Source of the DNA: a virus
Virus record (IMG/VR): IMGVR_UViG_3300035670_001034
Coordinates: 1-28,030 of that record
DNA: 28,030 bases
Direction: 5' to 3' (one strand)
The notes under the pieces are model-generated. The model worked only from the letters and a program-made list of their open reading frames with translations, did no database searches and was not told the origin of the DNA. The first letter of the stretch is position 1. Each line of letters begins with the position of its first letter. The position numbers and the translations under genes are program-made. Shown here piece after piece: positions 7,534-22,948 of the stretch.

Positions 7534-10500
7534 TACTGACTCAGACCTTGAACTTCAAGTTCCTTCTGCATCTGACCGATCGCCACACGGATGAGGTCGA
7601 TCTGGATACGCTCGAGGGTCGGAACAGGAGTCACGAACACCTTAGCATTCACGATGCCGTTCTCAAGATCTTCCGGCGGGTTGATCCGAGGATCACAGAT
7701 CACCTGGAAGGCTTCGGAAGGCTTAGCTCCGAACAGAGCGCCACGGACGTACAGCTGGTTCAAGATGCTATTTCCAATCAGAACGATCTGGTTGTAAATC
7801 ACGTTGAAACCGTCGACCACGTTGAAGATCTGGTTGTCGAACGCCCGACGCAGCGAGCCATACACCACGTTGAGAATAACGCGAGTGTTGACGAACTGAT
7901 ACAGCTTCTGCTGTGCATCGTCGGGATTGAGCAGACGGGTGCGACCACCCCAGATGAATACCGCGTTGTCGGGGTATCCGGGGAGGGTACGAACCACGTT
8001 GCAACCCTTCGGATTGAGCAGGTTCTGCTGAGAGGAGTTGACGGGAATCTGAACAGCCTGAGCATCGCGCAGCTGATACTTAACACCGGCAGGCGGGAAC
8101 TGGTATCCCTCGGAACGGTAGCGGCGGATGGCCACACCGGTAACATAGGGCGACGGAGGAATCCACTGGCCAGCGCCGTTCTCGATGTAGGGACCGTAGT
8201 AGGCAATGAAGCCAAACGGGTTACCGTACAGTTGAGAATCGTCGAAGAGGCGGTTGACGTTATCCACACCAGCTTCGATGAACTCGGCCTGAGGCTCACC
8301 AGAGAAGCCAACGCCACGCAGAGCGTCGTCGATGATCTCGGTGGAAGTGATCGCATCAAAGCGCCACAGCTCCTTGGGAATGCCTTGCTCAGGGGTGAAC
8401 ACCAGCTCAACTTGGCTACCGTAGCAGGTCTGACCAGCGGAGGTCAGATCGCCACCGTTTGTATCGGCAGGTACAACAACCCAATCATAGCTGGATCCGT
8501 TGTAGGTCATGACGATGCGGTCGCCAACCACGACAGGGGTACCATCGGGAGCGAAGCCAGCGGTGTCTACTTGGAAGTAGCAACCAGTCAGCTTAGCCTG
8601 GTCGAAGTTCATCTGGTTGGAGCTATCGCCAATCTGGATGCCCAGAGCAGCGGCGTAACCGTAGTTGCCTACAGCAGCAACGTTCAGAACAGCACCACCA
8701 AAGGCAGCAGACAGGGTCACAGTGTCAGCAGCAGCATAACCGCGACCGCCATCAGAAATCACAGCGTTAGTGATGTTACCGCCGGAAACGGTGATGGTCA
8801 GAAGCAGGCCAACTCCAGTGCCGCTGGTGGAAGCGGGAGCTACGTTGGTGTAAATACCGTCGGTAGCGGGACCGGCTGCCACAGGGAAGCCAGAGATCAG
8901 TGTTGCAGCATCGAGACCTACAACGGCGCTGATAGAACCGTAGGTGGACAGCACGCCAGTGATGGGCAAGTTGCCACCGCCGAAGGGAGTAGTAGGCAGA
9001 GTTACAACGCTGGTATTAGTGTAACCTTCACCCGGATCGTTGATGTCGATCTGAGTGATCACACCACCACTAATCTTAACAGTCAGCACCAGGCCAGCGC
9101 CGGTTCCTGTGGTTGTGGTCGGAACCACATTGTTATAGATCCCGTCAGGAGCACCGGTAGCAGGGAATGCACCGAATGTGGCGGCGGGGCCAATGGTTCC
9201 AGATCCAACGGTTCCGTTGTAAAGACCGGCGAAGATCGGGTCAATCGCAGGCACGAAGTAAGCTTCGGACTGGAAGAACTGATCAACTGTGGGAACACAG
9301 TAGGCGTTCAGAACAGCGGGAACAGGAGTTCCATCAGGATTTACAGTGTTCAGCTTAGGAAGATAATCACACTGGGTGTTGGAGCTAATGTCCTCACCAT
9401 AAGGGGTGATTTGATCTTCGCCCAGAATCAGAGCACTGTTGTTCAGGTAGATGGAGGTCTCAGGGTTGGCGTATACAGTGTTACCTGTGGGAGCCAGAGT
9501 AGCATCCAGAGCCTGGTTCCAGATGGTGTTGGAGTCGAAAGCGTACTTCCGAGCGCGAACCATTGGAAGTGTAAGCAGCTCAACAGGATTGACAACGGTC
9601 TCTCCTTTACCCAGCACTTGGCTGTAGAAGATGGTCGGCAGAGAGCTTACGGTTCCGGTGGGGAACTGAAGGTAGTTATTGGTGGTATAGTTCGCCAGGG
9701 AGTTAGACAGGGCAAACGAATCCAGGTCAATAACCTTCACGTAGTAGGCACGGGTCACCAGTTTCGTGGTGGCACGAATCAGGTTGCTGGTCAGACCGCC
9801 GCTGGTTACAGTTACGGGCTGAGTGAAGTAGATCTTCTGACCGTTGCGCAGACCGTGAGAAATCACGTTGAAGGATGCGGTTCCAGCGGGCACGATTGTG
9901 CCAGCGTAAGAGGTGATCAGAGTAGAGGGGTTCAGGATCGTGCGGCTCACCCAGTTCAGAACATAGGTGTTGGTAGGATCCTGCAGAGTGCCGGGCAGGT
10001 GCTGAGTGTTCAGACCTACGGTTTCTCCCGAGATGTTCTCAACGAGGTCAGAAGTCTGACCGTTGATTTCCACAGGGAGATCCCAATAAGGATCGGCGTA
10101 GCGCAGAACTGCGGTGTCGCCAGATGCACCAGGGATGTAGATCGAACCTACAACAGGCTCACTAATATAGTCCGAACCGTTGGCCAGAACCACAGAGTTA
10201 TAGACGCTGGAAGCATCGGAACCGGTGGTAGCCAGCAGAACATAGTTCAGCGAGTAAGCCGAATCGGTGATCAGGTTGCGAGGAGCAGCGACCACAAACA
10301 CTTCGGTGCCAGACAGGTTCTGAGCTACGTCAACGTTGGTGACAGTGAGAGTAACTGTACCGAAGATGCCGCCAGGGACGAATGTATCGCCAGGGGCATA
10401 ACCGTTGCCGCCATTGACAACAACCACGTTCGAAACTTCGCCAGCAGCGTTGGTGGTGATTGTAAGAGTACCGCCAATACCTGCACCGGAGGAGGAAGCA

Positions 10501-12014
10501 ATGGGTACACCTGTAGTGGTGGTCGAGGCAGGGAAACCGGATCCAGGTACGGTGATCGAAGCCTGGTACACCGGACCTGTGATGGTCGGGTTGTCGTCGG
10601 CGAAACCACGAACGTAAACGTTAGTGAAGTCGTTACCAACGCTGATTCCAGACAGGTTCACACGCTGAATGGGCAGCTCGACAGGCCAGTAGGCGACGGT
10701 GTTCAGTTCGAACACACCCCAAGCGGCACTACCAACTGCAGCAATCGTGTAGCTAGCAGGATCGAGCAGACCGATCTTCACACTGTCGGCCACAAGGTTG
10801 GCGGACTCGTTGATGGCGGTTGCAGCGTTCTCACCAGGGACGATGTCCTGGTAGGTAGCCTTAGGGTAGCTAACGTCGTTACCAATCCACTTGTAGATGG
10901 CGTTATCGACCAGATACTTCTTGCCTTCCTCAAGGTCAGCAGCAGGCTTATGAGGTACGAAATCCTGATACTCGTTGATGTCGGTGACCAGGTAAGGACC
11001 GGGATCAGCCAGAGCCATCCACTTGAAGTTGTTATTCTCGCAATGTGCAGCAGCAGCAGCGCCAACCAGAGAACGACCATCAGCGTCGAACTGAGCATAA
11101 GCGGTAGGGGTGATCAGGTAGCCCTGGTCCTGTACGCCGTCAAACGCAGTGTTGATGCACTGAGTGTAGTCTTGGGGAACACGCTCGATAGCCACGCTAC
11201 CGCCAACAATATTGGCAACATCGTAAGCATTCTGCATAAACACGAAGTTGGTGCCAACGGGCAGCACTTCGGTGATTACAGAAACATCGGCGTTGAAAGT
11301 TGTAGCGGCGATGGTGATGTAGCTCAGTTCGGAGTTGCTGGCCGGATCAACATCGTTGACCATGCCCACCTTACGAACATAAACAGAGCTACGAACAGCA
11401 GGGTTGGTCTCAATGGCTTCGGCAACAGCAGCAGCGATAGCGGCAGAGATCTTACGGTTGTTGGCTTCATCGCCAGCAACGTAGGTCACAGGGATTTCAA
11501 CGGGAACACCCAGCCACTCACCGTCAGAGGTGTAGCCGGTGGAACCGTCGCCAGCAACCAGCTTCAAGCCGTTCAGGATCATCTGAACATACACCTTATT
11601 GCCAGCCTGCAGGGCAGAGGGCAGGTCGGTGCTGTTGAGTTTGGTAGCAGCAGGATTGAAAGAAATCTCGGTGATTTCGTTGGGGGTACCAACGCGAACC
11701 ACACGCAGATCACCGGTCACAGCGTTCTGGAAGAACTCGTTGACGCAGTTATAGCTCAGCAGGGGAATGCGGCTCTCGGGGACTGTGGAGTTGCCAATCC
11801 GAATGAGTTCTTTATAGTCATTCAGGGAAGAGATCGCAATCGGCTGGTTAAAGGGGAAGCGGGTAACGGGTACACCTTCCTCAGTTTCCACCAGCATGTA
11901 GACGGTGCTGAAATCAGCAATACCGCCAAAAGCAACCTTGCCAGGTTGCTCATTGATGTAAACGCCGGGAGCTCCAGGGGTGTTACCACTGGTCCCGAGG
12001 GAAAAAGTTGCCAT
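7533..12014 (-). CDS. Contractile tail sheath protein, greatly enlarged
   Basis: This gene encodes 1493 residues and the tail sheath, which contracts to drive the tube into the host. The N-terminus (GAPGVYINEQPG) and a C-terminal block of about 190 residues carry sheath signatures: VFIWGGRTRLL, then RVILNVVYGSLRRAF, then FQVICDPRINPPEDLENG. Typical sheaths have 400-700 residues. Here the middle is enlarged by glycine-rich beta repeats at about 476-566, 943-1025 and 1031-1118. Each reads roughly DGIY.N...TGTGAGL.LT..V.GG.I......G.GY. The same repeat occurs in the 399-aa gene at 17919-19118. Such inserts probably sit on the outer tail surface. The gene has no TTA, CTA or TCA codon over nearly its whole length, which suggests very high expression. 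A structured leader of about 110 nt precedes the ATG. Confidence 0.9.
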   Translation of the reverse strand: MATFSLGTSGNTPGAPGVYINEQPGKVAFGGIADFSTVYMLVETEEGVPVTRFPFNQPIAISSLNDYKELIRIGNSTVPESRIPLLSYNCVNEFFQNAVTGDLRVVRVGTPNEITEISFNPAATKLNSTDLPSALQAGNKVYVQMILNGLKLVAGDGSTGYTSDGEWLGVPVEIPVTYVAGDEANNRKISAAIAAAVAEAIETNPAVRSSVYVRKVGMVNDVDPASNSELSYITIAATTFNADVSVITEVLPVGTNFVFMQNAYDVANIVGGSVAIERVPQDYTQCINTAFDGVQDQGYLITPTAYAQFDADGRSLVGAAAAAHCENNNFKWMALADPGPYLVTDINEYQDFVPHKPAADLEEGKKYLVDNAIYKWIGNDVSYPKATYQDIVPGENAATAINESANLVADSVKIGLLDPASYTIAAVGSAAWGVFELNTVAYWPVELPIQRVNLSGISVGNDFTNVYVRGFADDNPTITGPVYQASITVPGSGFPASTTTTGVPIASSSGAGIGGTLTITTNAAGEVSNVVVVNGGNGYAPGDTFVPGGIFGTVTLTVTNVDVAQNLSGTEVFVVAAPRNLITDSAYSLNYVLLATTGSDASSVYNSVVLANGSDYISEPVVGSIYIPGASGDTAVLRYADPYWDLPVEINGQTSDLVENISGETVGLNTQHLPGTLQDPTNTYVLNWVSRTILNPSTLITSYAGTIVPAGTASFNVISHGLRNGQKIYFTQPVTVTSGGLTSNLIRATTKLVTRAYYVKVIDLDSFALSNSLANYTTNNYLQFPTGTVSSLPTIFYSQVLGKGETVVNPVELLTLPMVRARKYAFDSNTIWNQALDATLAPTGNTVYANPETSIYLNNSALILGEDQITPYGEDISSNTQCDYLPKLNTVNPDGTPVPAVLNAYCVPTVDQFFQSEAYFVPAIDPIFAGLYNGTVGSGTIGPAATFGAFPATGAPDGIYNNVVPTTTTGTGAGLVLTVKISGGVITQIDINDPGEGYTNTSVVTLPTTPFGGGNLPITGVLSTYGSISAVVGLDAATLISGFPVAAGPATDGIYTNVAPASTSGTGVGLLLTITVSGGNITNAVISDGGRGYAAADTVTLSAAFGGAVLNVAAVGNYGYAAALGIQIGDSSNQMNFDQAKLTGCYFQVDTAGFAPDGTPVVVGDRIVMTYNGSSYDWVVVPADTNGGDLTSAGQTCYGSQVELVFTPEQGIPKELWRFDAITSTEIIDDALRGVGFSGEPQAEFIEAGVDNVNRLFDDSQLYGNPFGFIAYYGPYIENGAGQWIPPSPYVTGVAIRRYRSEGYQFPPAGVKYQLRDAQAVQIPVNSSQQNLLNPKGCNVVRTLPGYPDNAVFIWGGRTRLLNPDDAQQKLYQFVNTRVILNVVYGSLRRAFDNQIFNVVDGFNVIYNQIVLIGNSILNQLYVRGALFGAKPSEAFQVICDPRINPPEDLENGIVNAKVFVTPVPTLERIQIDLIRVAIGQMQKELEVQGLSQ
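8660..9190 (-). repeat. Two adjacent glycine-rich repeat units within the sheath gene
   Basis: Two units of about 80 codons each share DGIY.N, a TGTG(A/V)GL segment, G.GY(T/A) and a terminal YG. A third, more diverged unit lies at about 10317-10585. They are related to four units in the gene at 17919-19118. Confidence 0.7.
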
Positions 12015-12125
12015 TTTATTATGGGGGGAATCCTTCCATTCCGTCTCCCTGTGATGGCGAAGGCGATTCCATCGTGGTGCCCGTAGGCCAGGGTTTCGGG
12101 TTATTCAACGAGTACTTTTACCCGG
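12015..12125 (-). promoter_or_regulatory. Structured 5' leader of the sheath gene
   Basis: This 111-nt gap contains GGGTAAAAG (12115-12123), a CGGGT/ACCCG pairing between that element and bases about 20 nt further on, and a hairpin at 12053-12073 (GATGG with CCATC). AAGGA lies 17 nt before the ATG and no closer ribosome site is evident. Confidence 0.4.
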
Positions 12126-12504: not shown

Positions 12505-13116
12505 CTAAGGGGTCAGGTAACGGAAAGAGTAACCTTTGAGTTTCCCTTTGGTTTTGGTTCGGTTTTTTCTAGCTGCGTCAGCTACAGAGACTGGGTGAAC
12601 TCCGAGCAGTTTACCCGCCTCTTTTGTGGAACTGAAAGTTTTTTTCGCTCCATCCGGATAAGTCACTTCGACTTCTTTATTGAGGGGGTTATTCTCGCCA
12701 GATACGGAGCACGGGCTCTTTCCAACCAGGTTTTGGTTCCCCAACATTGCTTCTCTGAGTTTACGTCTAGTAGACGCACTCTTTTTACGTCCACGCCGTG
12801 CTAGGCTCTGCTTTTTGCGGGTTTCTAGAGAGACAGGTCTACCCGCTTGAGAAGGAGGTCTTCCTGCTACGGGGTTCAAGTTATAGCACTGTTCTGTTCC
12901 ATAGAACATATCTAGAAGTGCTTGCTCTAGTACTGGTTCTCCGCACTCATCGGACCGTACTTCCCATATGAAGTCTTCTGGACTCTTACGTAGAGCATTT
13001 TGGAAGGGGTAGTTTTGTTTGGACTGTAGGTGGCAGTATTTGCGCCATTCGAAGTTTATGGTGCTGCCAATATAGAATCTACCGTTTTTGGTGTTTGTTG
13101 CGATGTAGGTATCCAT
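12505..13116 (-). CDS. GIY-YIG homing endonuclease with NUMOD domains
   Basis: This gene encodes 203 residues, a free-standing homing nuclease. Residues 1-20 hold a GIY-YIG variant (TYIATNTKNGRFYIGST). A conserved glutamate follows in PVLEQALLDMFYG, and CYNLNPVAGR closes the catalytic domain. Residues 95-135 look like NUMOD3 DNA-binding repeats (SLETRKKQSLARRG, then STRRKLREAMLGN). The C-terminus (VTYPDGAKKTF.S..EAGKLLGV...SV..A.......KG..FRY) is a NUMOD1-type helix-turn-helix unit. These enzymes cut cognate genomes lacking the insert and spread by repair. The gene interrupts the tail assembly cluster, and I see no intron signature around it. Confidence 0.9.
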   Translation of the reverse strand: MDTYIATNTKNGRFYIGSTINFEWRKYCHLQSKQNYPFQNALRKSPEDFIWEVRSDECGEPVLEQALLDMFYGTEQCYNLNPVAGRPPSQAGRPVSLETRKKQSLARRGRKKSASTRRKLREAMLGNQNLVGKSPCSVSGENNPLNKEVEVTYPDGAKKTFSSTKEAGKLLGVHPVSVADAARKNRTKTKGKLKGYSFRYLTP

Positions 13117-13529: not shown

Positions 13530-13943
13530 TTAGCGTTTGCGTGAAAGGATGTTTTTCCAGGAGATTGGGACTATTTGCTTGAGAGAAATATCCGGCACGC
13601 CCATCCACGGGCGAGCGACCATCTTAGAGGTACCAAACTGTTGATATTGACCGTAATCGGTGCTCTTTACGTAAAAAACATTGCCTCTGGTGTAGATGTA
13701 GGCAATATCTTGCATCAATCCGGTGGCCCTTAGGATTGGTTGGCCAGGGTAGTTTTGGCTTTTCCACTTTGCGTATTTGGGAGACAGCTGCTGCCAAGGA
13801 CGCTGATATGTGGGATCTACCTGACGTTTCCAGAACTGGGGGTGGTCATCTAAAAGTACGGGAGTCCACTCCCTTTTAGTGGGTTGCCACCAGTTTAAGT
13901 TCAGAGGAGTTAACCCGTTACCTTGAACTCGAATACGTAACAT
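13530..13943 (-). CDS. Virion morphogenesis / tail completion protein, Mu gpG-like
   Basis: This gene encodes 137 residues that fit the phage virion morphogenesis family (Mu gpG, P2 gpS), which completes tails or joins them to heads. Visible family features are WQQLSPKYAKWKSQ, then PILRATGLMQD, then YGQYQQFGTSKMVARPWMG followed by a short helical end. This corresponds to the pattern W..Ls..Ya..K....iL..tG.l.......Ya..hQfG.....aRPflG. The length is typical. Its ATG overlaps the stop of the frameshift-encoded chaperone frame (TAATG), so translation is coupled. Confidence 0.8.
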   Translation of the reverse strand: MLRIRVQGNGLTPLNLNWWQPTKREWTPVLLDDHPQFWKRQVDPTYQRPWQQLSPKYAKWKSQNYPGQPILRATGLMQDIAYIYTRGNVFYVKSTDYGQYQQFGTSKMVARPWMGVPDISLKQIVPISWKNILSRKR

Positions 13944-14365
13944 TACTTTTTCCTTGCGTTTTTCTTCATGGCTCTATCTTGCTCTTCGGCATGTTTTTTC
14001 ACAATCTCAATCATGGTTTGAACTTTGCTCATTGGTTGAGCTTCTAACCAGTCGATCGAGGAGTCCCAACGTTGTTTACACAGATGGTAGGCAACCTCCA
14101 GCCAGTTCTCAACAGTAAGGATAGTTTGATCTAGGAGAGTTTTCCCCGTCCACTGAATCACTTGTCGAAACTGTGTGGAGGTTACCTCATCAAGAACCTC
14201 GGGATTTAAAAGAAGCCTCAAGATTAGTTCAATCTGATTTTTCTCGGATTGACGTAAAATCTGAGCAAGATAAAAGTCTTTTGGAACAACTTCCCGGAAA
14301 TGAAGAGTAGGACCATTGGGAATATGCACTAAATAAGTGAAATCCTCCTGATCCTCAACTGTTAG
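13943..14365 (-). CDS. Tail assembly chaperone, downstream (T) frame reached by -1 frameshift
   Basis: This frame is open from the shift site at 14365 to the stop at 13943 and adds 140 residues to the 108-residue upstream protein, giving a fusion of about 248. A stand-alone start would be the GTG at 14329 (128 residues), and weak internal initiation there cannot be ruled out. The sequence is helical and charged (FYLAQILRQSEKNQIELILRL, then WLEVAYHLCKQRW). In phages from lambda (gpG/gpGT) to P2 and Mu, the minor frameshifted chaperone helps bring the tape measure and tube proteins together. The frame relation, slippery site and position make this the T partner. No tape measure gene follows in this window, which is unusual. 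Confidence 0.75.
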   Translation of the reverse strand, partial: LTVEDQEDFTYLVHIPNGPTLHFREVVPKDFYLAQILRQSEKNQIELILRLLLNPEVLDEVTSTQFRQVIQWTGKTLLDQTILTVENWLEVAYHLCKQRWDSSIDWLEAQPMSKVQTMIEIVKKHAEEQDRAMKKNARKK

Positions 14366-14688
14366 TTTGGGTCTTCGTCGTCGGTGCCGTTAGCTTTGGC
14401 TACCAGGTCGCTGAGTTTGCGGAAGTCTTTTACTCCGAGGTCGAGAATCTCATCATAAGTGATCTTGTCATCGCCTACAATCAGTCGCTCGATGATGCGC
14501 ATGCCTTTTTCGACATCGCCTGCCTTGGTAAGATCTTTCTCCATGTAAACCAGGTCACGACCGGTCATTTCCCGGATAGTGATTTCGCGACCGTCGGTCA
14601 GGGTGGTGCTGAATGTTTCCAGTTTAGGCATTGCTTTTTTCTTGGTTGCCGGTGTAGATTCGACCGCGTCGTTAGAGATTGTTCTCAT
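14362..14688 (-). CDS. Tail assembly chaperone, upstream (G/E/41-type) frame
   Basis: This gene encodes 108 residues resembling the Mu gp41 / P2 gpE tail assembly chaperone family: a short variable N-terminus, a beta segment LTDGREITIREMTGRDLVYMEK, then a helical part with YDEILDLGVKDFRKLSDLV, where the family has a leucine-rich segment followed by a conserved D. It ends DEDPN just before TAA. A perfect X XXY YYZ slippery heptamer ends exactly at the stop (see the site at 14365-14371). The start at 14688 overlaps the upstream gene by 17 nt and has GGGTAAAAC 25-33 nt before it. Confidence 0.75.
   Translation of the reverse strand: MRTISNDAVESTPATKKKAMPKLETFSTTLTDGREITIREMTGRDLVYMEKDLTKAGDVEKGMRIIERLIVGDDKITYDEILDLGVKDFRKLSDLVAKANGTDDEDPN
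14365..14371 (-). promoter_or_regulatory. Programmed -1 ribosomal frameshift site CCCAAAC
   Basis: On the minus strand the zero frame reads GAC CCA AAC TAA, so the heptamer C CCA AAC fits the canonical X XXY YYZ slippery pattern in the correct phase. The stop codon follows immediately. Slipping back one base gives CTA ACA GTT GAG and leads without a stop into the downstream chaperone frame. Confidence 0.85.
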
Positions 14689-14917: not shown

Positions 14918-15105
14918 TAGAGAGCGCGAAGCATGTTTACGGTTTGCTGAAGGGAGAAATACCGAGCATTATAAGCGCATTCCACAGAGGAAGGAATGAT
15001 TCGGTTCTTTTTGTCGTAAGGCACTGTCATATAATAGGTATCGAGGACTCCCTTGTAAAGGAGCACACCGACGTTTTCCACACGGGACTTCTTGACTTTT
15101 TTCAT
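14917..15105 (-). CDS. Small basic protein of unknown function
   Basis: This gene encodes 62 residues with a lysine-rich N-terminus (MKKVKKSRVENVG) and several tyrosines (YKGVLDTYYMTVPYDKKNR). It is coupled to the polymerase gene by TGATG at its start and to the next gene by TAATG at its end, which supports real translation. The pattern VGVLLYKGVLDTYYMTVPYDKK reads as alternating strands. I do not recognise the family. A helper of the polymerase or a transition gene between the replication and tail modules are both possible. Confidence 0.6.
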   Translation of the reverse strand: MKKVKKSRVENVGVLLYKGVLDTYYMTVPYDKKNRIIPSSVECAYNARYFSLQQTVNMLRAL

Positions 15106-17885
15106 CAGATTACTCCTTTTTGAATAGCGTTGTAACGGTTGGTAAGTTTGTCGATGGCTCCGATTTCATTGAGCTCATACATTGAGTATTCGGTGCCGAA
15201 CTCCTCGGTTTCACCTTTCGGGTTGGAGAGAGTCACGGTCTTCTCCTTAGGGGATTTGCGAAGGCGCTCGTCAATCGCAACCGAGGAGAAGTAGGCTCGA
15301 GAGAGGGGAAGATCTGGGATCCCCACTGCCGAGTGGAACAGGGACCAGGTATACATATGAGCGATTTGGAATAGAACAGCAAACTGTTCAGCGTAACGCT
15401 CCGGAGTCATAAACCAAATCTCGTCATGGATGCTCAGAACGAAACGAGCTGGGATTTTGTACTCTGCGGTTAGCCAGTGGACTGCTGTGAGCATAATGGA
15501 CAGGATCTCAGCACCAGAGGACTGAATGGTCCAGTTTACGCGGCCTGTCTTGAAGTCATCGCCGACGGCAGCGGGACGCATTGCCGTGGAGATTTTGGTT
15601 CCGAGACAAGGTAGCTGAGGCACACGGGACCGCATCGCAATCTCTTCCATGAAGTTGAAGCAGCCTGAGTCAGACCCTCCTTCGTACAACCCGTTCCGGA
15701 GCCTTCCTTTCTTACCTTCGAGAATACGATAAGCAAAGTTTTTTACTTCGTTCGGGGACTTCTCGGGGTATTTCCGTCGGATGTAGGTTTGCACGGCGCG
15801 GACCCCAGCCCCGTAGAGCACCGCGAAACCTGCGATTTTGGCGGTGTCCCGGTCCACGCCAGCCAGCTTAGCAAGAGCACTATGGGGATCAGTCCCCGCC
15901 TCTTTTGACCCGGAAAGAACGTTGTAACCAAACGGCGAACATCCAACATGACCACCTTCCCACTTGTCAGAGTAGATTGAAGCGATTTGCATCTCTTGAC
16001 CATCAAAGTCAGCGCCAACGATCTTCCAGCCATCGGGTGCTTGCACACGAGACTTCAACTCGGTGCCAATGCGCCAGTTTTTCGTTGAGCACATTGTCAC
16101 CATAAGAGATTCCACAGTGCGGCGGGTGACGGTTCCGTGGCAGAGAATCTCAGGGAGGGTGACAAGAGCATCTTCGCCATGGGGATTGGCAACGGGAAGG
16201 AAGATCCGGTCCATCACGCGCTTGCGAACCGAAGTCCAATATGAGACCGCGTTCGCGATCTCAAGTGCCCGTTTCGCCTCTGGTAGGTCGCTATTGAGCC
16301 GACCCACCTTCATATCGTCGACAAAGTCTTTCGAAAGCACCCCGCCAACATTTGCTCCTGTTCCTTTCGGGTGAGGAATCTTCTGTGCTTTGCCTTCTTC
16401 GTCATGATATTTCCAACCTTCACTCTTAGTGTGATACATTGGAGAGCCTTCCCAAGTTAGCTTGAGTAGAATGTGTGAAAGATTGCTCTTGACGCCGATG
16501 TGTTCGTTGGGGTCCTTAATGAATGGGCGAACCCAGTTTGGGATTCCAGCATACTTGCCTTTCTGTGTCTTAACCTCCCAGTCTAGTTGCGAGAGCCAAG
16601 GGTCCCGCGCAATCCAGGACTCGGCCATTCCCGGCTCAGCATAATAAAGATCACGCCACTCGTCATAATACTTCCAGACAAGATCTTGACACAGCTTCGT
16701 CATTTCCTTGTTGTGCTCATCGAAGACTCGCTCGACATTCTTGATCCAGTCTTCCCAGTCGGGGACGAGTGGGACGATGGAACCGTTCAGATGATAGTGA
16801 CCACAAAGTGCTGTGAGGCTTGGGGTCGCATCGACATACTTAGGCCACAGAGCCTGGAAGAGTTCGGCAGTGTAGAATGCGTCTTTGATGGCGTAATCGA
16901 CAGCATCGGTTAGCATCTGCCGAATCTGACTCAGATGAGTTGCTGATACGAAAATGTCCCGCACTGCCTTGTCCCCGGCGCCCAAAGGCTGAACATCGTC
17001 TCCGAAAAACTTACGCACTTCGTAAACGTGAAAGTTGTAAGTGGCCACCAGAGAGTTGGTGGAACCTTCGTCCAGCCACTTGGGGGCATACCTTAGCTTT
17101 CGTTTTTCTTCGTCAGTAAGGTTCTCAGGGTCCTTACCAGCCAGAACATATAACCAGCGCTGGCCACTGGCAAGACCAGATACGCCAATGTGTGCAGAGA
17201 GTGTGTCAAAATAGAAGTTTTCGGGTTTGGTGCGATCGAGTGAGTAACCCTCGCGGGCGCGGACTCGGTCGTAGGAAATATTGTGGCCAACTACAAAGCG
17301 ATTCTCACCAATCGGAATCAGCGAGTGTTGGTCCCACTGATCCTCCGGGATGCTCGGATCAATAAGTTCAGAAGCCAGCCAAATGTAAGCCGCTTTGGTA
17401 GATAGCGCAGTGCCAATAATCGGAAACGCGCCACCATGCACATAAGTCTCAGTATCGAACGTGAATGCTTTTTCCAGAGGATACGGTACAGATTCCGTCT
17501 TCCACTTGCCGCGTACCTTCGTGTAGCGCGTCCAGCCGGGCTTGAATACAAGCTCGGTTCTCGGCGGGATTTCTGGTAGTGTGCAAACTGCATAAACATC
17601 CGCGAGCTCCTTATACTCGCCTACTTGTTCTTTCGCAATCTCCTCAAAGTGTGCTCTGAGGTTGCCACCTTTGAGCTTCGGTAGAGGGAGGGGACCATCA
17701 TAAAGGTGATCAGGATAGTCAACGGGAGTGGCAATGTCGAACTCCTTCAGCAGGTTCTCGGCCCGTTGCATTTCCAGCCGAGACATTTTCTTAGGAGTTT
17801 CCTTACCAAAAATCCTCTCGTGAAGATCTTCAGAGAGGACTGGATAGCCGAGAGGTGTTTTCCGCATAGGCGATAGGTTTTGCAT
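15105..17885 (-). CDS. Family A DNA polymerase, mitochondrial Pol gamma-like
   Basis: This gene encodes 926 residues, a replicative DNA polymerase with 3'-5' proofreading. Exo I is FTFDTE (D144, E146). Exo II is VVGHNISYDR (D206), very close to the VVGHNVSFDR of Pol gamma. Exo III has Y331 and D335. Motif A is VGADFDGQEMQIAS (D626), motif B RDTAKIAGFAVLYGAG (R679, K683, F687, Y691) and motif C LSIHDEIWF (H820, D821, E822). Motif B matches the R..AKI.....YGAG of Pol gamma rather than the usual Pol I form. A long spacer (about 350-590) separates the domains, as in Pol gamma. There is no 5'-nuclease domain. F687 sits where human Pol gamma has Tyr951. The -10 box ends about 7 nt before the ATG, so the transcript may be leaderless. 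Confidence 0.93.
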   Translation of the reverse strand: MQNLSPMRKTPLGYPVLSEDLHERIFGKETPKKMSRLEMQRAENLLKEFDIATPVDYPDHLYDGPLPLPKLKGGNLRAHFEEIAKEQVGEYKELADVYAVCTLPEIPPRTELVFKPGWTRYTKVRGKWKTESVPYPLEKAFTFDTETYVHGGAFPIIGTALSTKAAYIWLASELIDPSIPEDQWDQHSLIPIGENRFVVGHNISYDRVRAREGYSLDRTKPENFYFDTLSAHIGVSGLASGQRWLYVLAGKDPENLTDEEKRKLRYAPKWLDEGSTNSLVATYNFHVYEVRKFFGDDVQPLGAGDKAVRDIFVSATHLSQIRQMLTDAVDYAIKDAFYTAELFQALWPKYVDATPSLTALCGHYHLNGSIVPLVPDWEDWIKNVERVFDEHNKEMTKLCQDLVWKYYDEWRDLYYAEPGMAESWIARDPWLSQLDWEVKTQKGKYAGIPNWVRPFIKDPNEHIGVKSNLSHILLKLTWEGSPMYHTKSEGWKYHDEEGKAQKIPHPKGTGANVGGVLSKDFVDDMKVGRLNSDLPEAKRALEIANAVSYWTSVRKRVMDRIFLPVANPHGEDALVTLPEILCHGTVTRRTVESLMVTMCSTKNWRIGTELKSRVQAPDGWKIVGADFDGQEMQIASIYSDKWEGGHVGCSPFGYNVLSGSKEAGTDPHSALAKLAGVDRDTAKIAGFAVLYGAGVRAVQTYIRRKYPEKSPNEVKNFAYRILEGKKGRLRNGLYEGGSDSGCFNFMEEIAMRSRVPQLPCLGTKISTAMRPAAVGDDFKTGRVNWTIQSSGAEILSIMLTAVHWLTAEYKIPARFVLSIHDEIWFMTPERYAEQFAVLFQIAHMYTWSLFHSAVGIPDLPLSRAYFSSVAIDERLRKSPKEKTVTLSNPKGETEEFGTEYSMYELNEIGAIDKLTNRYNAIQKGVI

Positions 17886-17918: not shown

Positions 17919-19118
17919 TCAGAGGGTGCCGATGGGAGGTGCGACAGGGTTGTCCTGTACAGGATACAGGAACGAATATTGAATCGCTTGCTGGTTGGCA
18001 TTCGGCGGAACGAAGTCGGCGACTTGGTTCTGGAAGAAGCGGTGGGGAACTTGGGCCCACTTGGGCTCGCTCGCGTCGGTGGTTGTGCTTACAGAGGTTA
18101 CGGTGATTACGAGGCCTGTTCCGGCCCCGACGGTGGTAGGGTCGGGAATCAGGGCATCGCCGGCAGCGTAACCAGTACCAGCAGCGTTCAGGATTACGCT
18201 AGTGATGCTACCGGAGGCTCCAACAATGATATCTAAGGTTGCACCAGAGCCAACGCCGGTTGTGGTTGTGGTTACCGCTGTGTAAGATCCAGGAGTGTAT
18301 CCTGTACCCGTTGTCCCCACTTGGAATGCAGTAATGGGACCGCCGATTGGGCCAACGGTGACGAAGAAACCAGTTCCAGAGCCCATACCGGCTGTCACGG
18401 TGAGGCCGTCTCCAGCAGTGTAACCAGAGCCTGCGGCATTGATGGAGGCTGCGGTAACGTAGCCATTAGCATCTACAGTGACATTCAGAGTGGCGCCTGT
18501 GCCACTACCACCTGCAGTGGGAAGTCCAGTGTAAGTGCCGGGAAGATAACCGCTGCCTGCGCCTAACGTAGTCAGAGAGGTGATGGGACCGGTTGCAAAG
18601 GTGTACGAGTGAACGTCGTACTCGAACATTGTCGGATCGCCCGGATTCACGTTATAGGCGTTCGGAGGAAGTTCGGTATAGTAATCGTAGTAGTTGGTAG
18701 TCCAACCTTTGAGAGCGGGGCGGACTGATTTGGTGTTTACAGTTGCAACTGTAACCGTTGCGCTGGTTCCTGCAGCAGTGCGAGGAATGTTGCCAAGAGT
18801 CAACACCTGACCAACGAAAAAGTTGCTGCCGCCAGCGGTGATTGTAACACCGGTTACAGCGCCTCCGGATACTGTTACAGTAGCATACCCGAAAGAGCCA
18901 ACTGCACCACCGAGATAGGTGTTTGGGTAAGTGCCGTCGGTGTAGTTGGTGCCTCCGGTGAAGGTGACTGTATCGATAGCACCGACAGTTCCAGCGACGG
19001 AAACTGCCGTGGCGGTGTCAAGGTAACCGTTTAGAATGATATTGCCGTAATTTTCGAGGTCGGGGGTGGTAAAGGTGGCCTCCACCGCCTTCGCCATTTG
19101 AACTGTGCGTGGAATCAT
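17919..19118 (-). CDS. Repeat-rich probable virion protein
   Basis: This gene encodes 399 residues from the ATG at 19118 (MIPRTVQMAK); an in-frame start at 19172 would overlap the upstream gene, and an ATG at 19097 is also possible. After about 45 residues come four glycine-rich units of 70-80 residues, with motifs GSGY(L/T)(P/A)G, GSGTGA, a V.G.(V/I)T.(A/V) segment and GTGYAAGD. They are related to the inserts in the tail sheath. The last 45 residues are different (WAQVPHRFFQNQVADFVPP) and may anchor the protein. Such repeats in cyanophage structural proteins are thought to form beta-rich surface modules. A tail fibre, sheath-associated or head surface role is possible. GGGTAAAAC lies 24-32 nt before the start, suggesting late expression. 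Confidence 0.75.
   Translation of the reverse strand: MIPRTVQMAKAVEATFTTPDLENYGNIILNGYLDTATAVSVAGTVGAIDTVTFTGGTNYTDGTYPNTYLGGAVGSFGYATVTVSGGAVTGVTITAGGSNFFVGQVLTLGNIPRTAAGTSATVTVATVNTKSVRPALKGWTTNYYDYYTELPPNAYNVNPGDPTMFEYDVHSYTFATGPITSLTTLGAGSGYLPGTYTGLPTAGGSGTGATLNVTVDANGYVTAASINAAGSGYTAGDGLTVTAGMGSGTGFFVTVGPIGGPITAFQVGTTGTGYTPGSYTAVTTTTTGVGSGATLDIIVGASGSITSVILNAAGTGYAAGDALIPDPTTVGAGTGLVITVTSVSTTTDASEPKWAQVPHRFFQNQVADFVPPNANQQAIQYSFLYPVQDNPVAPPIGTL
18080..18990 (-). repeat. Four tandem glycine-rich beta repeat units
   Basis: Four units of roughly 210-240 bp encode G..GY..G....., then GSGTGA, then a strand pair. They are homologous in pattern to the repeats at about 8660-9190 and 10317-10585 in the sheath gene. 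Confidence 0.65.
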
Positions 19119-19141
19119 CGTGCCACTCGGGAATATATTCG

Positions 19142-19150
19142 GTTTTACCC
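19142..19150 (-). promoter_or_regulatory. GGGTAAAAC element (candidate late promoter)
   Basis: The GGG TAA AAC contains the stop codon of the 88-aa gene and lies 24-32 nt before the start of the repeat-rich virion gene. Confidence 0.4.
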
Positions 19151-19411
19151 TCCAAAATCGCACTCCCAGCACAGTCGACCGGGTGCTTCATCGTAAAGAC
19201 CTAGGTTGCGAGCTTCGTTAATAGCGTCTAAGAGAGCCTTATCATTCTTGAGGCGCCGATGCAATCGCAAACGCCACATGCAATACGCTTTTGCGTTCTT
19301 TTCGTTGGGTTGAGTGCAATATCTTTGGTAATAGGACTCAACCGTTTGTACCATGCCGATGCCAACCTTGGCGATAAGGTGGTCGACGGGGTTAAGAGCG
19401 TGAACTTTCAT
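19145..19411 (-). CDS. Small protein of unknown function
   Basis: This gene encodes 88 residues, helical and basic in the middle (AKAYCMWRLRLHRRLKNDKALLDAINEARN), with a C-terminal RLCWECDFGG that contains a CxxC (CWEC). A single CxxC could hold metal together with the upstream cysteines or be redox-active, but that is speculative. The ATG overlaps the stop of the preceding gene (ATGA), so the two are coupled. The length and gene order do not identify a known family. Confidence 0.65.
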   Translation of the reverse strand: MKVHALNPVDHLIAKVGIGMVQTVESYYQRYCTQPNEKNAKAYCMWRLRLHRRLKNDKALLDAINEARNLGLYDEAPGRLCWECDFGG

Positions 19412-21001: not shown

Positions 21002-22948
21002 TTAGAGAGTGACGTCAGTGAGAGAGGCAACCTTTATACCCTTGCCGCCGGGTTTGCCTGCCTTGATTGTTAGATCAAGTTTCAGTGCTTTCTTGCGAGA
21101 GGAAGCCCAAGGAACCTGATAGGTGCTTTCGCCAAAGTGAATGATGCTAGCGCCCTCAGGCAGCAACGCCTTCCCTTTGCTGTTTGCACGTGACAGGTCG
21201 GCTCCGTTAAGTGCCATAGCTTTCAGAGAATCCTCCAGCTTGAATACAACGAGATACTTTCTCTCGGTGACTTCTGATTCTTTCTTAGCCAGAAGGACAG
21301 GGGAGTAGCCATTGCCAAGGGTTCCTTTGAAGTTGAACGGAAGTTTCTTCAGTGTGCCGTCTTCGGTCAGGGTGATTAACTTGTCGGATTTCTCGAGAAT
21401 GAGAGCACCGCGAGGACCTTTGGCGGACTCCACGACTCCGCGCTTCATGTCAATTTTCAAGAACTTTGGTTTAGCAGCCGGTGCCGCTTGCCTTTGGGAC
21501 CCTTTCTCGACGATGAGGCTTTCCGGCGGGTCAATAATGGCCGAGCGGCGTGCCTCACCGTGCCGGACGCCAATGGCCTTAATCTCCTTGACCATGTAAG
21601 CTTTACGAGCCTTGTCGTTTTCGATAAGGTCCTTAAGTGTTGCCAAGCGGGTCTCCAGTTCTGCTTTCTCTGCAAGTAACTCTTCCGAGTCCATGTTTGT
21701 AAGGGACCGGAGCTTCATTTCTAAGATTGCCCGAGCTTGCTCACTTGTGAACTTCAGAGAGCGGTTGGAGACGAGTTCGACCAGTGCTTCTTTGGGGCTT
21801 TTTGCTGCGCGGATAACTTTGATGACCAAGTCGATCTTATCGACTGCCTTTAGAAGGCCGAGGACAATCTCGTGACGGGTTTCCTTGGCGTCTAACTCGT
21901 AAGTGAACTTTCGACCAAGGCAACCCAGGCGCCACGTCTGCCATTTTGTGATAAGGTCACGCGAAGGGAGTTCGACTGGTTTACTCCCGTCAAGACATAG
22001 ATTCCTCGCGCTATACGTAGATTCCAAGTCAGTGTATGCGTACAGGTACTTGGTAAGGGCAGAGGCATCGACACCGGGTTTTGCAATAACTTGGATGCAA
22101 TCTCCGGTGTTACAAGAGAGATCGATGACTTCGTTGATTCCATCGAATTTACCTTTTTCAAGACCGTCTTTGATTTGTTGTCCGATTTTCTCAGGGTTTG
22201 TGTTTGGAGGCAGGTTGGTATAACTGAGCGTCGCTCTCTCTTTTGCTCGCCCGCTTTTTTCTTGCACACCAATTTCGAGTTTAGCTCGCAGACGCAAGGT
22301 GCCGCTACCTGTCTTGACGTACTCCTGAAGCCCTTCATCTCGAATAATGTGGCAGCCTGTGGGGAAGTCTGGATACAGATCAGCACCACTCACAACTGCG
22401 TTACAGATGTCGCGTAGGTTATGTGAAGCTAACTTAGTGCTGTATCCCACCGAGATCCCCTCAGTACCATTCAGAAGGATTGCGGGGATTTTCGCATTGA
22501 GTACAACCGCTTCCTTGCGAGAATTGTCGTAGTTGGGTCGAGTTTCCCATGTTTCCCGGTCTTGCAGGAGAATCTCGAGAGCCGAGGTTGTAAGACGGTT
22601 CTCCAGATATCTTTCTGCGGCAGGGGGATCTACGGTGCTTCCTACATTGCCGTGTACGTCGACCCAAGGAATCATGTTGTTCCATGAAGTTGCCATGGAG
22701 ATTAGCGAACCGTAGGCGCTACCGTGGGGGTGGTAGAATGCACTCGTGAGGCCGGTGGTTCGGGCACACTTGACGTAAGGTTTGTTTGGGAGAAGTCCCT
22801 CTTCGAGCATTGTTTGAAGAATGCGTCGGCGTGATGGGATTAAGCCGTCACGGAGATCTGGTAGTGCTCTTGTTAGAGTTGCAAGGCTGTACTCGAGGTA
22901 AGAGTTTTTCACCTCGTGGACGAGGTCGATCGGAGTGTCGTTTTGCAT
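21002..22948 (-). CDS. Type IIA DNA topoisomerase, A (breakage-reunion) subunit
   Basis: This gene encodes 648 residues. The N-terminus follows the GyrA/ParC/T4 gp52 pattern: SLATLTRALPDLRDGLIPSR, RRILQTM, FYHPHG (71-76), DVHGNVGS (97-104) and PPAAERYLENRLT with the DNA-linking R113-Y114. A tower region and a long coiled coil follow, with a shortened C-terminal domain. The usual GyrA has about 875 residues and six beta blades, so this version is more ParC-like or T4-like and may relax or decatenate DNA rather than add supercoils. No ATPase subunit gene is in the window. The -10 boxes lie so close to the ATG at 22948 that the mRNA is probably leaderless. Confidence 0.9.
   Translation of the reverse strand: MQNDTPIDLVHEVKNSYLEYSLATLTRALPDLRDGLIPSRRRILQTMLEEGLLPNKPYVKCARTTGLTSAFYHPHGSAYGSLISMATSWNNMIPWVDVHGNVGSTVDPPAAERYLENRLTTSALEILLQDRETWETRPNYDNSRKEAVVLNAKIPAILLNGTEGISVGYSTKLASHNLRDICNAVVSGADLYPDFPTGCHIIRDEGLQEYVKTGSGTLRLRAKLEIGVQEKSGRAKERATLSYTNLPPNTNPEKIGQQIKDGLEKGKFDGINEVIDLSCNTGDCIQVIAKPGVDASALTKYLYAYTDLESTYSARNLCLDGSKPVELPSRDLITKWQTWRLGCLGRKFTYELDAKETRHEIVLGLLKAVDKIDLVIKVIRAAKSPKEALVELVSNRSLKFTSEQARAILEMKLRSLTNMDSEELLAEKAELETRLATLKDLIENDKARKAYMVKEIKAIGVRHGEARRSAIIDPPESLIVEKGSQRQAAPAAKPKFLKIDMKRGVVESAKGPRGALILEKSDKLITLTEDGTLKKLPFNFKGTLGNGYSPVLLAKKESEVTERKYLVVFKLEDSLKAMALNGADLSRANSKGKALLPEGASIIHFGESTYQVPWASSRKKALKLDLTIKAGKPGGKGIKVASLTDVTL

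Follow-up and report, generated by a model that had tools for sequence, protein, structure and literature searches.

The two overlapping open reading frames on the minus strand of the window (the whole 28,030-nucleotide stretch analysed, IMGVR_UViG_3300035670_001034) are best explained as a tail assembly chaperone pair expressed through a programmed -1 ribosomal frameshift, a reading that we consider very probable. We propose that most ribosomes would read C CCA AAC and terminate at the abutting TAA, yielding a 108-residue gpG-like chaperone, whereas a minority would slip back by one base as tRNA-Pro re-pairs with CCC and tRNA-Asn with AAA. In many lineages an RNA stem some 5-11 nt downstream would aid slippage, and ribosomes that have slipped would translate the -1 frame into a gpGT-like fusion of 248 residues. 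The initial annotation had proposed a -1 frameshift in this pair, and comparison of the sequences supports it: the heptamer is conserved, the constrained frame switches exactly at this point, the second frame has no conserved start codon, and structured RNA follows at the level of the family. Together they describe a well-supported -1 site with a conserved and unusual position of the stop, the mechanism itself being already well known. That slippage occurs, its rate and its tandem character are what we infer from these comparisons, and by analogy with lambda the two products would have the tail-assembly roles of gpG and gpGT.

The site and its two reading frames

An in-phase heptamer with an abutting TAA had been noted at the end of ORF1, which is borne out by the 3' end GAC CCA AAC TAA; the strand, omitted in that annotation, is minus for the whole feature. 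Both frames are open around the heptamer, which lies in the 0 frame with the X XXY YYZ phasing of a -1 frameshift site (Table 1). The -1 frame, open from 14389 after an in-frame stop at 14392-14390, has its next stop at 13943, and its translation through the heptamer is PKLTVEDQEDFTY... The reading after the slip begins with CTA ACA (Leu-Thr) at 14365, and the predicted fusion has 108 + 140 = 248 residues with the junction DEDPN-LTVEDQ; the next frame open through the site, the length of about 248 residues and the junction had all been given correctly beforehand.

Table 1. Features of the chaperone pair and its putative frameshift site in the window
Feature	Position	Strand	Remarks
ORF1, tail assembly chaperone (PF10109 TAC_7-like)	14362..14688	-	108 aa, 0 frame
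Slippery heptamer C CCA AAC, in phase	14365..14371 (read 14371-14365)	-	window sequence
TAA stop, adjoins heptamer	14362..14364 (read 14364-14362)	-	window sequence; abutting stop retained beyond Leu codon usage
-1 frame (ORF2), stop included	13943..14389	-	PHROG 9001 weak match; -1 frame constrained in relatives
Possible stimulatory hairpin, AGGAUCA/UGGUCCU closing stem, 9 nt after heptamer	14309..14355	-	predicted
GTG, listed ORF2 start, probably not the natural start	14327..14329	-	ORF list

Conservation of the heptamer

By itself the motif is weak evidence, since CCCAAAC recurs in other genes of the window (of four in-phase occurrences in the 26 ORFs scanned, three are in other genes) and GAC CCA AAC for Asp-Pro-Asn is expected from codon usage alone at a probability of about 0.11. 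As these other occurrences lie within three genes (15105-17885, 17919-19172 and 21002-22948, all on the minus strand), the heptamer as such is not strongly counter-selected here. In the sequences compared, the excess over chance comes from conservation and not from the motif.

Scanning viral contigs with ORF1 gave 52 loci, in which CCCAAAC (51/52) or CCCAAAA (1/52) is followed directly by TAA or TGA in every case (52/52) and no stop interrupts the -1 frame for 138-141 codons counted from the site. Scans with ORF2, two of which kept the best 80 of 150 and the best 80 of 149 relatives, widened the set, and no scan used the slip site as a search pattern. The 106 distinct ORF2 loci, window included, were reduced to 105 distinct junctions by the exclusion of L092, whose contig starts after the site. 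When CCCAAA was sought directly in the ORF2 frame, it was found in phase and followed by C, A or G at 104 of these 105 junctions, the window included, among the matches listed. CCCAAAC adjoins the stop in 84 and precedes it by one codon in 10, CCCAAAA precedes it by one codon in five and adjoins it in three, and CCCAAAG adjoins it in two; L143/L144 and L194 carry CCCAAAC plus stop. L173, the sole relative without the heptamer among the matches listed, reads GGGGGAATGA with an ATG overlapping the stop. Around position 2500 L173 has a G run as well as this ATG-stop overlap.

A scan of genome contigs yielded one relative from 34 matched stretches. L135 has a similar gene order on a contig assigned by binning to an uncultured Microbacteriaceae bacterium, which may reflect the host or a binning error. 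With bases 1-25000 of the window as query, no near-identical phage DNA was found in the phage collection.

Changes at the site were counted by parsimony on a tree of 104 ORF2 proteins from which the first three codons were omitted, a tree built from few columns in which many forks are weak. Within this count, which is limited to junctions with CCCAAA and leaves the one of 105 lacking the heptamer outside, no change falls on bases 1-6 of the heptamer and four fall on base 7, as against 25-39 changes at the five ORF1 third positions that precede it. The codon before Pro is GAC, GGC, TTC, AGC, GCC, CCC or AAC, so that the residue varies (Asp, Gly, Phe, Ser, Ala, Pro or Asn) and the third base is always C. 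As CCC and AAA are both kept, re-pairing of both tRNAs would be favoured over a single slip.

The frame under constraint and the start of ORF2

Upstream of the heptamer the variable positions are 0-frame third positions, and right after it they are -1-frame third positions. For the 89 sequences in which the stop abuts, pN/pS in the 11 codons that follow the slip is 0.196 for the -1 frame versus 1.35 and 1.51 for the others, and stops in the same codons occur in 0/89 sequences in the -1 frame versus 44/89 and 60/89. By these measures, protein-level constraint passes from the 0 frame to the -1 frame exactly at the heptamer.

In 82 of the 104 junctions the -1 frame holds no ATG, GTG or TTG over the stretch that starts two codons ahead of the heptamer and ends with codon 13, and this start-free stretch includes the conserved block EDF(T/S)Y. 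Given the constraint on the -1 frame and the lack of these codons, the stretch after the heptamer is probably translated, and a usual start codon cannot explain this in most relatives. As in G/GT-type pairs, the second ORF lies in the -1 frame and has no conserved start of its own, some relatives having an overlapping ATG. The GTG listed as the start of ORF2 was rejected, being located after the conserved EDFTY block and not conserved in relatives. CTA and CTG were also rejected as start codons, the same codon being also CGA, CTT, ATC, ATA or GTA.

Downstream RNA structure

A stimulatory RNA structure downstream of a -1 site is usual and not obligatory. Synonymous-codon shuffles, pairing and stem onset were analysed at 83 of the 104 junctions, thinned at 85% identity. 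The 66-nt RNA that begins 3 nt after the heptamer gave a mean z of -1.80, with 34/83 below -2, whereas 14 other windows along ORF2 gave means of -0.50 to +0.19 with 0-10/83 below -2 in the same shuffles. Dinucleotide shuffles on every second junction (52/104) gave a mean z of -1.45 versus -0.40 and 0.02 in control windows. Mean pairing exceeds that of the shuffles from about 11 nt after the heptamer, and in single sequences stem onset is mostly at 5-11 nt.

The signal, significant over the family as a whole, varies within it. It is strongest in the isolate S-CBWM1 (z -6.75), and in the clade around L114/L115/L163 the synonymous-shuffle test detected no downstream structure. The RNA of the window itself gave z values of -1.23 (80 nt), 0.41 (120 nt) and -1.50 (synonymous shuffles), none of them significant, and the consensus fold computed for 23 near relatives, at -2.46 kcal/mol, is a weak one. 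We also considered that the stem might be positioned by the stop and not by the heptamer; this was unsupported, the onset being at 6-9 nt in 7/9 representatives with CCCAAAC and one intervening codon and at 9-11 nt in 30/67 with CCCAAAC and an abutting stop.

Protein identities and neighbourhood

The ORF1 protein of the window scores 23.8 bits against PF10109 (Phage_TAC_7; E, 41 or 14), just under the curated cutoff of 25. Among 27 family members scanned, PF10109 is found at E<=0.01 in 26 and PHROG 344 in 22, and ORF2 weakly matches PHROG 9001 (tail assembly chaperone) in 11/27. For a low-confidence model of ORF1 (pLDDT 66), the best PDB match is the HK97 tail assembly chaperone 2ob9 (E 0.025) and the best viral fold matches are proteins of S-CBWM1 and S-TIM5. 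The label of a gp41/gpE-like chaperone given initially holds insofar as PF10109, PHROG 344 and the HK97 fold agree, and is less secure insofar as each match is weak alone; the profile and model matches, weak but consistent, suggest that ORF1 is related to a known tail assembly chaperone family. PF10109 is the family of the P2 E/E' and Mu gp41 chaperones, common to them and the ORF1 relatives, the window protein being under the cutoff.

Frameshifted chaperone pairs customarily lie just before the tape measure gene, which aids in locating them and does not define them. Here no tape measure gene was recognised in the ORFs scanned, and the pair is not just before a recognised one; it lies between a gamma-type DNA polymerase gene upstream and, downstream, genes for tail completion and then sheath, an order that recurs in the same or similar form in S-CBWM1. 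The polymerase (15105-17885, minus strand) has a mitochondrial gamma-type exonuclease domain (PF18136, E 8e-62), and its closest counterparts in the phage collection are S-CBWM1 and then S-TIM-type phages. A GIY-YIG homing endonuclease gene lies among the tail genes (12505-13116, minus strand), and a 1512-codon open frame (7548-12086, plus strand) runs antisense to the 1493-codon sheath gene, probably as a codon-usage effect.

Known systems and alternative arrangements

The G/GT-type frameshift of lambda and its counterparts in tailed phages was reportedly described by Xu et al. in 2004 (as cited in PMC5009743). The slippery heptamer of lambda is GGGAAAG. The window shares with lambda G/GT and its counterparts a short chaperone with a -1 extension and a heptamer near the end of ORF1; it differs in the CCCAAAC heptamer, the abutting stop, the place of the pair upstream of tail completion and sheath genes and the lack of a recognised adjacent tape measure gene. 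The tail-assembly role that we infer is taken from lambda gpG and gpGT, products which, according to PMC5009743, bind the tape measure and the tail tube and leave the virion.

A closer counterpart is the homologous pair gp79/gp80 of the Synechococcus phage S-CBWM1 (MG450654), which like that of the window has a gamma-type polymerase and tail completion neighbours. There CCCAAAA lies directly before TGA and strongly structured RNA follows (z -6.75), but an ATG overlaps the stop and the two are annotated as separate hypothetical genes. S-CBWM1 and L051 read CCCAAAATGA, that is, the heptamer together with an ATG overlapping the stop (ATGA), and slippage and reinitiation are therefore both possible there. 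In the more distant S-TIM5 (L203 9738-10512), taken as homologous from the fold matches and its place beside the sheath gene, the genes overlap, ORF2 starts from an ATG of its own in the +1 frame, and the overlap does not carry the heptamer. The group seems to hold fused, dual and separate versions, and in view of the arrangements in L173, S-CBWM1, L051 and S-TIM5 some lineages may be able to dispense with the fusion. We found no literature title on a frameshift in this phage group, in a coverage that leaves out most subscription journals, and the evidence for novelty is weak.

The stop codon adjoining the heptamer

TAA or TGA follows the heptamer directly in 89 of the 104 junctions and one codon later in 15. 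In SEA-PHAGES data the distance from slip site to stop has a mean of 26 nt (PMC10885494). The abutting stop, whose position the initial annotation had called rather extreme, is unusual. The same annotation called the site textbook. The -1 frameshift reading stands, and the epithet calls for qualification in a heptamer ending in AAAC: among the motifs measured in E. coli, C_CC.A_AA.G performs best, and after C_CC the efficient ones have AAR, not AAC (PMC4066793). The absence of C_CC.A_AA.C from these efficient motifs is a point against the frameshift reading.

The third codon of the -1 reading is CTA in 64 and CTG in 20 of the 88 cases with CTN (84/88), whereas these two make up 38% of CTN codons by usage in these genes, and at the third base of that codon 16 A/G changes are counted versus 3 to C or T. 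Because of the CTA/CTG excess and the A/G-biased changes, the abutting stop appears to be selected and seems not to be a by-product of a requirement for Leu; selection for prompt termination would look identical.

It is conceivable, and we offer it as speculation, that the abutting stop contributes to the function of the site: it would compensate for the weak AAC-ending heptamer and hold the heptamer in the E and P sites, so that the chaperone-to-fusion ratio would follow release factor activity. One or two substitutions, at position 7 of the heptamer and at the base that follows the T of the stop, would also convert this arrangement into ATGA reinitiation and back, forming a natural series from one fusion to two separate proteins.

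Alternative explanations

ORF2 might instead be a separate gene for which the heptamer is incidental, translated either by termination-reinitiation at the ORF1 stop or close to it, or from GTG 14329 with a ribosome-binding site of its own. Reinitiation would suit the ATGA of S-CBWM1 and L051, the ATG without a heptamer in L173 and the overlapping ATG in the +1 frame of S-TIM5, and the GTG of the window has an AGGAGG upstream. However, 82 of the 104 junctions hold no ATG, GTG or TTG up to codon 13 though this stretch is constrained as protein, GTG 14329 is not conserved, and a reinitiation site would have no need of the invariant silent bases C1 and A4 of the heptamer; we regard a separate gene as very improbable. 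Transcriptional slippage, or a sequencing or assembly error at the junction, would also leave two adjacent ORFs in different frames, but the runs consist of three C and three A only. As the same junction recurs in more than 100 distinct sequences and in the isolate S-CBWM1, error is already refuted, and the probability left to this class of explanations is next to nil.

A variant counted within the programmed frameshift concerns its timing, namely that the -1 slip is late, with the stop in the A site and the heptamer in the E and P sites, and that the level of release factor tunes the ratio. Known viral sites with an abutting stop differ from the window in using eukaryotic ribosomes, in their slippery sequences and in the fusion products made. 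Viral -1 sites with the stop directly after the slippery sequence, as in the window, were already known, and at an HIV site with an abutting stop, assayed in bacteria, -1 slippage was suppressed by RF2 (Horsfield 1995, as described in PMC4373837). A late slip is consistent with this suppression, with the prevalence of the abutting stop (89/104), with the CTA/CTG excess and A/G-biased changes described above and with the place of AAC-ending heptamers outside the efficient E. coli set (PMC4066793). Yet in 10/94 CCCAAAC sites the stop comes one codon later, stem onset is not shifted 3' with the stop, and plain selection for prompt termination fits the data too; we consider a late slip possible and rather doubtful.

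Implications

The programmed -1 frameshift would correct the reading of the chaperone pair in myophages with a gamma-type DNA polymerase, including the isolate S-CBWM1. The abutting stop retained across a large clade, together with the natural variants (one sense codon between heptamer and stop, A or G as the seventh base, an overlapping ATG), provides a ready series, which could be used to test bacterial -1 slippage with a stop in the A site, tuned by release factors.
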